Source: Cellulosilyticum lentocellum DSM 5427 (lineage in GTDB: Bacteria > Bacillota > Clostridia > Lachnospirales > Cellulosilyticaceae). Taken from it: a stretch of 64,000 bases of DNA. The notes below the pieces were generated by a model. That model was not told the origin of the DNA. It did no database searches and saw only the letters and a program-made list of their open reading frames with translations. Below, in pieces: positions 1,809 to 4,647 of the stretch. Position 1 is the first letter of the stretch; each line of letters begins with the position of its first letter. The position numbers and the translations under genes were made by a program. Location: contig NC_015275.1 in the NCBI RefSeq assembly GCF_000178835.2, positions 4,617,001-4,681,000 on the forward strand, given 5' to 3'.

Positions 1809-1858
1809 AAGATTTTTGATTTTTTACTAGGGACTTCTCAAGTACGAGACATATATAG

Positions 1859-2319
1859 AAGTGTAAAAACAAATTAAATAACTTCCCACGGCATAATCAC
1901 CGCAGCATCAACCTGAGGAACTGACCGGGTCAGCCAAGTCTCAATCTATTGTTATAGGTACCTCTGGACTTAAGGAAAATGTTCACTTGTGCGCTGACAG
2001 GGAGGCGCCACTTATAAGTTATGAAGTGTGTTTTTACATCTATTGCAGTACCAAAAATAAAGTTTCAACCAGAGTCCTAATGCCTTAGCTTCCTAATCAT
2101 AAAGGGTGCACCGGCTAAGACTTTAAGGAGCTCCTCACTCATTGGTTTAGCTTTCACAACTGTCCTTAGTAGGCACCATGCTTGTCATAGTAGTGCTGAG
2201 GAGCCATTCTATGCCTTGTATAAGGTCTATTTAGGCAGTCATGAAAGTTTTCATCAAGGGTCTGGAGCAAAAAAGCAAGAGCACATACACCGTTATGCTG
2301 TATGTGCTCTTGCTTTTTT
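1859..2319 (+). ncRNA. candidate large structured RNA, about 460 nt, class unknown
   Basis: No convincing coding frame runs through this stretch, but it is full of complementary segments. 1862-1871 pairs with 2029-2038 (10 bp plus a G-U), enclosing 1936-1940/1967-1971 and 1984-1988/2024-2028. 2084-2089 pairs with 2114-2119, 2130-2137 pairs with 2197-2204 (8 bp GCTCCTCA/TGAGGAGC), and 2269-2289 pairs with 2299-2319 (21 bp perfect). The last hairpin ends in six T residues and looks like a terminator. The plus strand is preferred because the terminator then lies at the 3' end, but the hairpin would work on either strand. Base composition is richer in G+C than the flanking spacers. I cannot match it to a known class. 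No promoter is clear; it may be read through from the ABC operon. Confidence 0.5.
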
Positions 2320-2582: not shown

Positions 2583-4103
2583 CTATTGTAAAGGAATCTC
2601 CACTCCTTCAATCACTATACTTTGTACTTCTTCTATATTGATAAAATCATATACCAGCAAATCGCTGGCACTATCTATAGTCGGTGTTTTAATCCCTTCT
2701 GTTAATCCTTCTACTTTACTTAAATTATGTCCCTCTTTATTTTCTCCACTTCTCACTACATTATAATACATATTAAATTTTATATTGCGTGTATTCATCC
2801 CCGTATTATTTAAATCAATTTTTGTACCGTCTTTCATTTTCAAATAAACTTCTTGTAAAGCTTCTATCTTTTTAGAACCTTTATAGCCTTCTAGAGTAGC
2901 GCCTAATGCTGATACTTCTACTTTTGTAATAGTTAACTTTTGTTTTTCGTTTTTAATGGTTTGACTCATATGTCTTGTTTTAGTCTGACTATTTTTATCC
3001 AGTTGAAACTCTACTTGCCACTTACCATCTAGGACATTTTCAAAATAATTATTCCCTACTTTAAATTTAAGATAAGGTAAGTCTTCTTTTTTAAACTGAT
3101 TAAATACGTAGTAGTCTTTATTTAATGCTTCTTTCTCACTCCAATAGTGCTCACTCTGAGAAGGTTCATAGCTTTGGCCGGTTCTTTCATCTATCATTTC
3201 TATATACGTACTTTGATTTTCTATATTCACTTGATCATAATAACTTGTAATCAGTTCTATTCCTGTATCGCTAACATAAAAAGCATCTAGTTTTATTTCC
3301 TTAAAATCCTCGACTAGAATTTGATTAAGTCCTAAAGCACTTGTATAGCTTTTCCAAGGCTGTTTTATTTCTATTGGTGTTAGCTCCTCTAGTTTTATAT
3401 CAGATACTTTGGACAAATTTCTCCATACTCTTATGCCACTTGCTTCTAGTGTTAGCTTTTGACCATATAACTGCTGGTTAGATGATAAATCTATGATACA
3501 ATTCAGCTGCTTTTTATCTTCAGATAAACTGCTTTGTACTCCCCAGCCCATACTACCTGGTCTTTCTGTTTGTACTTGCATTTGTTTTACTTCACTACCC
3601 TCTTCGAAGGTACCTCCATCATCTTTAGTAAAGCTTGCTATAAACAATCCGGATTTTTTATCAATTAAAGCTCCTTCAGCAGTAAAAGTTAAGCCTTCAG
3701 CACTCATACTTTTTTCAATAGGTTGTACTTGATCTTTAAACGGAAAAAACTCACCAAATATATCTTTTAAAGTAGGATTATAATTAACTGCTGCTACAGT
3801 TCCTACAACTAAAGCTGCTGCTACTAACGGAATCAGTATTCTCTTTGTAAGCTGTCCTCTACCTCCTTTTCGCTTAGCCCCATTACTTCTCTCATTTGTT
3901 TCTAAATGTATACTGTTGTTCTCTTTATATGTTTCATCAGGTACGCGCTTATCCTCTGACATTTTCCCTATATTCCTAGTTGCTAAAGCTTTTATGCGAT
4001 CTATTGAAACCTGTGGTACTTCCCTTATTTCTGCCTCATCCATAACCTCTTCCATTAAATCCTCTTGTATATCTTCCATAAGCTCAGTTAACTTCTTATT
4101 CAT
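2583..4103 (-). CDS. DUF4179-like membrane protein, probable anti-sigma partner
   Basis: 506-residue single-span protein. An acidic cytoplasmic N-terminus of about 85 residues is followed by a span near residues 88-106 and a large extracellular domain resembling the DUF4179 (and C-terminal DUF5643-like) proteins encoded next to ECF sigma factors in Clostridia. The ATG at 4103 is chosen over the GTG at 4112 because AAAGGGGTG precedes it at good spacing. It overlaps the end of the sigma gene in an ATGAATAA arrangement, so the two are translationally coupled. The role as the sigma-binding membrane sensor is inferred from the pairing; no zinc-finger anti-sigma motif is visible. Confidence 0.75.
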   Translation of the reverse strand: MNKKLTELMEDIQEDLMEEVMDEAEIREVPQVSIDRIKALATRNIGKMSEDKRVPDETYKENNSIHLETNERSNGAKRKGGRGQLTKRILIPLVAAALVVGTVAAVNYNPTLKDIFGEFFPFKDQVQPIEKSMSAEGLTFTAEGALIDKKSGLFIASFTKDDGGTFEEGSEVKQMQVQTERPGSMGWGVQSSLSEDKKQLNCIIDLSSNQQLYGQKLTLEASGIRVWRNLSKVSDIKLEELTPIEIKQPWKSYTSALGLNQILVEDFKEIKLDAFYVSDTGIELITSYYDQVNIENQSTYIEMIDERTGQSYEPSQSEHYWSEKEALNKDYYVFNQFKKEDLPYLKFKVGNNYFENVLDGKWQVEFQLDKNSQTKTRHMSQTIKNEKQKLTITKVEVSALGATLEGYKGSKKIEALQEVYLKMKDGTKIDLNNTGMNTRNIKFNMYYNVVRSGENKEGHNLSKVEGLTEGIKTPTIDSASDLLVYDFINIEEVQSIVIEGVEIPLQ

Positions 4104-4647
4104 ATGCCACACCCCTTTCTTTCAGTGCACGTTCTAGCTTCTTCTTTCCCCTAAACAGCTTAGTTCCTACTGTCTGTACGTTTAAATGAAGGATTTCTGC
4201 TATGTCGATTATTTTTTCCATATAGAAATATCTTCTTATAAAAATTTCTCTATCCGGCTCTGGCAATGTATTAAGTGCTGCCAACACTAGCTTATTGTCC
4301 TCTTCCTGCACTAAGCTATCTTCTGGGGTTTCATAATCTATACTGTCTTCTTCTAATGGGATGAACTCCCTTCTTCCTTTACTTCTCATGAGATTAATAG
4401 TATGGTTTCTAGCCATCGCACCTAGATAAGCTTTAAGCTTTCCTGTTTCTATCTCTAATGTTCTTTGCTTCTGCCAAACTTTAATAAATACGTCTGCACA
4501 GAGTTCTTCTATCTCTGTTGTTTGTAACATACCTGATGAAACTTTCATAATAACCCGTACTAAATAAGCCCCATACTCATCTATTAACTGCTCATAGCAA
4601 ATCATATCGCCACTTTGTATGCCTTTTATGATTTCTTCTTCCTTCAT
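4096..4647 (-). CDS. ECF-type RNA polymerase sigma factor
   Basis: 183 residues, the usual length for a sigma-70 family ECF factor. Region 2 is seen in ELCADVFIKVWQKQ and the following AMARNHTINLMRSKGRR segment (core and -10 contacts). Region 4 is the C-terminal helix-turn-helix from ALNTLPEPDREIF through VQTVGTKLFRGKKKL. GAGGAGGA precedes the ATG. It is the first gene of a two-gene unit with the DUF4179-like membrane protein, with an 8-base overlap. Targets are unknown; autoregulation is common in this family, but no promoter pair could be compared here. Confidence 0.93.
   Translation of the reverse strand: MKEEEIIKGIQSGDMICYEQLIDEYGAYLVRVIMKVSSGMLQTTEIEELCADVFIKVWQKQRTLEIETGKLKAYLGAMARNHTINLMRSKGRREFIPLEEDSIDYETPEDSLVQEEDNKLVLAALNTLPEPDREIFIRRYFYMEKIIDIAEILHLNVQTVGTKLFRGKKKLERALKERGVAYE

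Follow-up and report, generated by a model that had tools for sequence, protein, structure and literature searches.

Positions 1859-2319 of the window, by which we mean the whole 64,000-nucleotide piece of the Cellulosilyticum lentocellum chromosome analysed here, raise the question of what a stretch without a credible gene might encode. It lies on the 3' side of an ABC-2 transporter permease gene (594-1808, + strand); beyond its other end come a convergent gene encoding 509 aa, for which Pfam gave no match at E 0.001, and then a sigma-70-like gene confirmed by Pfam. The open reading frames overlapping the stretch measure only 33-60 aa, in agreement with the original prediction, which had seen no credible gene there but a candidate large structured RNA of no matching class. 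That claim would have been contradicted by a lack of homologues with compensatory changes, by a confident Rfam hit or by a conserved peptide. Homologues with compensatory changes were found, no Rfam family is hit at the gathering threshold, and no peptide is supported across the aligned copies; together with covariation in 29 copies and a diverged but topologically matching RNA in another species, this speaks for the prediction. The stretch very likely belongs to a structured non-coding RNA gene family, and, no catalogued family having been matched, a new class of RNA is the best reading.

Copies, modules and predicted fold of the RNA

The RNA family comprises 38 copies in the C. lentocellum chromosome (G000; 4,714,237 bases in one contig), one of which is window 1861-2319; these 38 are full length over domains 2-3. 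A BLAST search with the region as query returned 42 matches in this chromosome, some of which are parts of one and the same copy. When domains 2-3 were searched for with a covariance model (R2), we obtained 44 matches up to E 0.1; 38 of these span the whole model at E 4.8e-18 or better, and the other six are fragments or chance matches, including one to the opposite strand of the window copy. The domain 1 model (R1) matched strongly in 29 copies and weakly in L043. Domain 1 is an optional module: it is whole in 29 of the 38 copies, reduced in L043 and absent from eight (L042, L044-L048, L128 and L192). L044 retains a short P1-closed hairpin where domain 1 would be, while in L042 and L045-L047 the putative promoter and the 5' region of P1 join domain 2 directly.

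The + strand of 1855-2325 folds with a minimum free energy of -149.7 kcal/mol, compared to -118.45 (sd 6.27) in 100 shuffles, none of which was as good (z -4.98). The minus strand reaches z -3.51, and the terminator hairpin contributes part of the z on both strands. The arms proposed in the original prediction, P1 (1862-1871/2029-2038, TGTAAAAACA/TGTTTTTACA) and the later-named helix A (2130-2137/2197-2204, GCTCCTCA/TGAGGAGC), are present as claimed, and so is a long hairpin near 2269-2319, where a strong terminator had been called. Arms and structure stood; overlooked had been the other copies, the motif upstream and a helix pairing 2149-2162 with 2236-2249 (helix B), which makes a pseudoknot (Table 1).

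Covariation was assessed in 29 aligned copies over 48 pairs of domain 1 and 40 pairs of domains 2-3, where 98.2% and 93.2% of the pair cells, respectively, are paired; sliding the partners lowers pairing to 31-49%. In domain 1, 10 pairs are changed on both sides versus 4.7 in shuffles (reached in 0 of 500), and the further pair types are as numerous as in shuffles (31 versus 30.0; 184 of 500). For domains 2-3 it is the covariation score that exceeds the shuffles (0.212 versus 0.151; 0 of 500), the double-changed pairs being at shuffle level (8 versus 7.9; 292 of 500). Since paralogues share history and are not independent, these controls cannot be taken as probabilities. In an unguided scan of 40 sequences helix B scored highest of all helices. 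Six of its 14 pairs have both-side changes, and helix A is near-invariant within the genome, five of its eight pairs never varying. As the arms of the two helices interleave, they are predicted to form an H-type pseudoknot. Paired columns hold 229 G-U versus 48 A-C cells, and this excess of G-U places the RNA on the + strand. The covariation supports the predicted fold of an RNA.

Of the 38 copies, 34 have a terminator-like hairpin after the body, versus 6 of 38 control segments, which begin 250 bases past the RNA body; in four copies none was found by the test used. One of the 34, L046, is a weak chance call, its hairpin being interrupted by an insertion sequence. In each of two genomes an RNA copy has an insertion sequence of IS3 type, recognised by eye, inside or at its terminator hairpin (L046:3099-3190 and L052:100-150), as though the hairpin served as a target.

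Table 1. Features of the window copy, with sigma-factor-like genes next to RNA loci (positions in the window unless a locus is named)
Feature	Position	Strand	Remarks
-35-like box CTAGGGA (family consensus TTAGGGA)	1827..1833	+	box mean pairwise identity 0.90, 29 copies
15-base spacer	1834..1848	+	length nearly constant, sequence free; identity 0.44
-10-like box ACATATA	1849..1855	+	identity 0.95
Inferred RNA	1861..2319	+	start about 6 bases past the -10-like box (inferred), end at the terminator
Domain 1, closed by P1 (1862-1871 with 2029-2038)	1862..2038	+	complete in 29 of the 38 copies
Conserved core of domain 1	1885..2013	+	mean pairwise identity 0.88
Domains 2-3, closed by P2 (CCAG 2069-2072 with CTGG 2262-2265)	2069..2265	+	
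Helix A, 5' arm GCTCCTCA	2130..2137	+	8-bp helix; compensated version in G005
Helix A, 3' arm TGAGGAGC	2197..2204	+	
Helix B, 5' arm	2149..2162	+	pairs with 2236-2249; crosses helix A (pseudoknot)
Helix B, 3' arm	2236..2249	+	
Terminator-like hairpin and U run	2269..2319	+	stem identity 0.39 between copies, hairpin kept
Sigma-factor-like neighbours	window 2583-4647; L192:1659-3470; L049:8093-9548		only the window one Pfam-confirmed

The upstream motif and its other sites

The family motif TTAGGGA-N15-ACATATA stands in exact form before 30 of the 38 copies. The whole genome holds 34 exact sites, 30 of which precede RNA copies, versus a single site for a control with the pattern backwards. The window copy, L018, L035 and L042 show one mismatch at the same spacing (the scripted call placed L018 and L042 in other registers), a weaker form with a 14-base spacer stands before L032, and by the test used the motif is absent from three copies (L038b, L048 and L192). 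The inferred start, about 6 bases past the second box, coincides with the first bases of P1. The family carries its own promoter-like motif, the promoter activity of which we infer from sequence.

The exact motif occurs in 7 of the 24 genomes of the taxonomic family and in 16 of the 392 genomes of the order, namely those seven and nine outside the family; the latter have one match each, fewer than the approximately 27 matches of the backwards control there. Judged by eye, it precedes DUF1659/DUF2922-type operons in G017, G019, G021 and G023, which suggests an alternative sigma regulon of unknown kind; Pfam was run for these domains only on the C. lentocellum pair (L119). Operons of this type with a promoter-like motif ahead of them were seen in two genera (L119, L146, L147, L149, L150 and L193:9050-9230), and the operon motif has one mismatch in the congener G005. 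The motif also precedes alike-looking proteins, four in G014 and one in G001. A profile scan covering three of them found phage-type DnaD-like/replication-initiation profiles, clear in one G014 protein and in the G001 protein and weak in another G014 protein. Further sites lie ahead of an endolysin-like amidase and of an unproven RNA with a terminator (L145), both in G001, and ahead of a tRNA-Gln gene in C. lentocellum.

Members in relatives and proposed spread within the genome

The genome of G005, from the same genus, contains an R2 match of 46 bits preceded by ATAGGGA-N15-ACATATA. It keeps the order of the window copy (motif, P1, P2, helices A and B, terminator) in strongly diverged sequence, with 8/8 pairs in P1, 5/6 in P2, 8/8 in helix A and 13/13 in helix B. 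Its helix A (GCCCCUC/GAGGGGC) is compensated relative to the window copy, its inner domain 1 differs, and the genome holds a second, partial locus. Sporanaerobium hydrogeniformans XHS1971 (G007) has two diverged loci in which helix B pairs at 11/11 and 12/12 positions. Because relatives carry diverged members, the RNA is older than C. lentocellum. One of the Sporanaerobium loci adjoins a BREX operon (BrxA, BrxB and BrxC by Pfam; L052:656-7000).

R1 matched 2 of the 24 genomes of the taxonomic family and, under stricter filters, 2 of 295 genomes of the order, the source genome included in each case; as R1 also misses G005, wider absence is not proven by it. An R2 match in G023 (E 0.095) was not accepted as a member, and a 23-base match in G016 (L053) was judged by eye to be chance. 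A pattern search of genome contigs gave three matches, one in Sporanaerobium and two in metagenome-assembled genomes of Flavobacteriales and Deltaproteobacteria, for which membership was not established. Plasmids and phages gave no blastn match, and viral contigs no match to a single pattern; in both searches records near the own genome were possibly excluded. Three loci with promoter-like motif and terminator, L115 and L127 in C. lentocellum and L145 in G001, are possible remote members of unproven homology: L127 scores 13.3 bits with R2, and L115 and L145 have no match up to E 1. A 16S rRNA gene lies convergent to L115.

The copies, which contain no coding gene, are many and dispersed, and gain relative to kin is shown at one site. 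Copy L030 lies between hisA and hisF on the opposite strand, where the gap between the genes is 742 bp, compared to 49, 117, 57 and 30 bp in the congeners G001, G006, G002 and G005, respectively. The hisA search matched in six of the seven genus genomes, five of them with an adjacent weaker match taken as hisF; the exceptions are G003 with a single match and G004 with none. As L030 splits a gene pair that is tight in four congeners, the copies look inserted. No target-site duplication was detected in the 32 of 38 copies tested, the unit edges being uncertain; the longest word shared by the flanks of these 32 averages 7.19 for matched versus 7.05 for mismatched flanks (permutation p 0.27). Terminal inverted repeats were assessed by eye alone, and a scan of five loci reports a different, outer repeat. 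Since the promoter-like motif, outside the inferred transcript, is copied along, movement at the DNA level is favoured, and copying through RNA, as by a SINE proper, is disfavoured on the same ground. Mobile amplification of the family is plausible from its dispersal and the one gained site, with no mover identified.

Another repeat family, characterised by internal inverted repeats (L023:3790-4151) and with 67 matches in the C. lentocellum genome, lies within a few hundred bases of 10 of the 38 RNA copies by hand count and flanks three of these on both sides in opposite orientation. Sigma-factor-like genes together with a larger gene adjoin two RNA copies and one fragment (Table 1).

Alternative readings and proposed explanation

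A divergent member of a known large class such as OLE, ROOL, GOLLD, raiA or HEARO/omega RNA would be generically alike in size, terminator and pseudoknot, but the searches make this extremely unlikely. Rfam 15 at the gathering threshold found no family anywhere in the window, and only rRNA and tRNA in L023, L038, L052 and five other loci. A permissive scan of the window copy gave 18 sub-threshold matches up to E 10, most of them on the terminator; in L019 every such match falls on or overlaps the terminator hairpin, and L193 produced one snoRNA-type chance match. The kinship with OLE, ROOL, GOLLD and raiA suggested in the original prediction was not recovered, none of the four being matched at E up to 10 in the window copy or up to 1 in L019 and L193. 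The HEARO model, which we take to be RF02033, matched neither in the gathering scan nor in the permissive scans of these three members, and no IscB was recognised by eye among the neighbours of the copies, not all of which were scanned. A likeness to T-boxes (AGGGTGCACC) was dropped because L036 and L038 lack it, and a CsrA sponge because the GGA motifs are mostly in stems and, by hand estimate, not above expectation. Our literature search, outside the scope of which most subscription journals fell, found no earlier description of the RNA among the papers listed. The notion of a gene for a conserved small peptide can practically be dismissed: short frames exist, and the most shared stop among those of at least 30 aa (antisense, ending at window 1932) is common to 15 of the 29 aligned copies, but the remaining 14, window copy included, do not keep this frame open over 30 aa, its starts differ (9 TTG, 3 ATG, 3 GTG), and indels among the copies do not come in threes.

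Position after the ABC-2 permease gene and the terminal hairpin would also suit a cis element of neighbouring genes, be it a UTR, a riboswitch-like leader or a 3' terminator module. We regard this as very unlikely, as the copies have their own promoter-like motif and adjoin varied genes in mixed orientations: 15 antisense-tandem, 6 sense-tandem, 8 convergent and 4 divergent in a hand count that assigned 33 of 36 places, ignored spurious-looking small reading frames and excluded L128 and L192. The alternative to be taken most seriously, though we still hold it to be unlikely, is a selfish dispersed DNA repeat, MITE-like in the manner of BOX or bcr1, in which fold and transcript matter little and structure persists through kinship. 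It would account for many copies in varied intergenic places, modular losses and decayed fragments, a copy inside a gene pair tight in congeners, and the bias of the copies towards the presumed lagging strand (26 of 38; p 0.034 with the origin taken to be at base 1). It would not account for the compensatory changes, which point to selection on the RNA, for the near-constant promoter spacing with a free spacer, for terminators kept despite changed stems, or for the same architecture in a diverged congener.

Known systems share single traits with the family. HEARO, the omega RNA of IscB-IsrB, is a structured RNA of a few hundred nucleotides tied to mobile elements, with many copies in some genomes; it is similar in size, structure and copy habit and differs in that the Rfam scans gave no HEARO match and no IscB was recognised by eye among those neighbours that were scanned. 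BOX elements are likewise modular in build, and we know of no promoter, terminator and pseudoknot belonging to bcr1. As far as the available part of the source goes, bcr1-bcr18 of the Bacillus cereus group are dispersed, mostly chromosomal and lineage-restricted elements of 100-400 bp with mobile features, bcr1 averaging 39 copies per strain (PMC6542083). Our family resembles them in dispersal and lineage restriction; the mobility of bcr elements is tied there to a TTTAT motif (PMC6542083), whereas no target duplication was detected here. BOX elements of Streptococcus pneumoniae, of 84-200 bp, also occur in many intergenic copies and, in the accessible portion of their description, are not termed promoter-terminator RNA genes (PMC2267715). 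OLE, ROOL, GOLLD and raiA are large, ornately folded non-coding RNAs of bacteria, raiA occurring in Clostridia, according to those parts of the sources that were at hand (PMC12286853, PMC11706538). ROOL and GOLLD are described as encoded by phages or prophages, in many cases close to tRNA islands, and, unlike for our family, dispersal in tens of chromosomal copies goes unmentioned in what was available of that source (PMC12286853).

The explanation we prefer, and consider probable, is a new family of structured non-coding RNA genes, trans-acting and amplified as a non-autonomous DNA element, with expression and function inferred. Comparison at the sequence level establishes the copies, the motif, the predicted fold, its strand, a sister-species member and one copy within a gene pair tight in congeners. 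Transcription, for which RNA polymerase probably uses a special sigma factor or activator, would begin about 6 bases past ACATATA and produce an RNA of about 460 nt ending at the terminator. That this is a stand-alone transcript is likely, transcription and start site being inferred in the absence of expression data. The RNA would fold into the P1-closed domain 1 and a P2-closed domain with the H-type pseudoknot of helices A and B, and would most likely act in trans via a bound partner; such action is plausible, both it and the partner being inferred. Within the genome the unit, bringing its own promoter and terminator, would have been amplified as a non-autonomous DNA element. Only tentatively, as a possibility we rather doubt, do we extend this to a mobile RNA gene, SINE-like in habit, the only cargo of which is the structured RNA, with a fold that aids its own spread or upkeep and a dedicated promoter class connecting it to a host regulon, which in relatives includes the DUF1659/DUF2922 operon, DnaD-like replication initiators and the endolysin-like amidase.

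A large structured RNA of unknown function usually has one or few genes per genome. With about 38 variants in one genome, in addition to diverged relatives, structure, constraint and function become comparable within one organism. The shared promoter class offers a handle on the timing of expression and on the sigma factor, and, if the copies move, C. lentocellum would harbour a mobile element with a folded RNA as its sole recognisable product.
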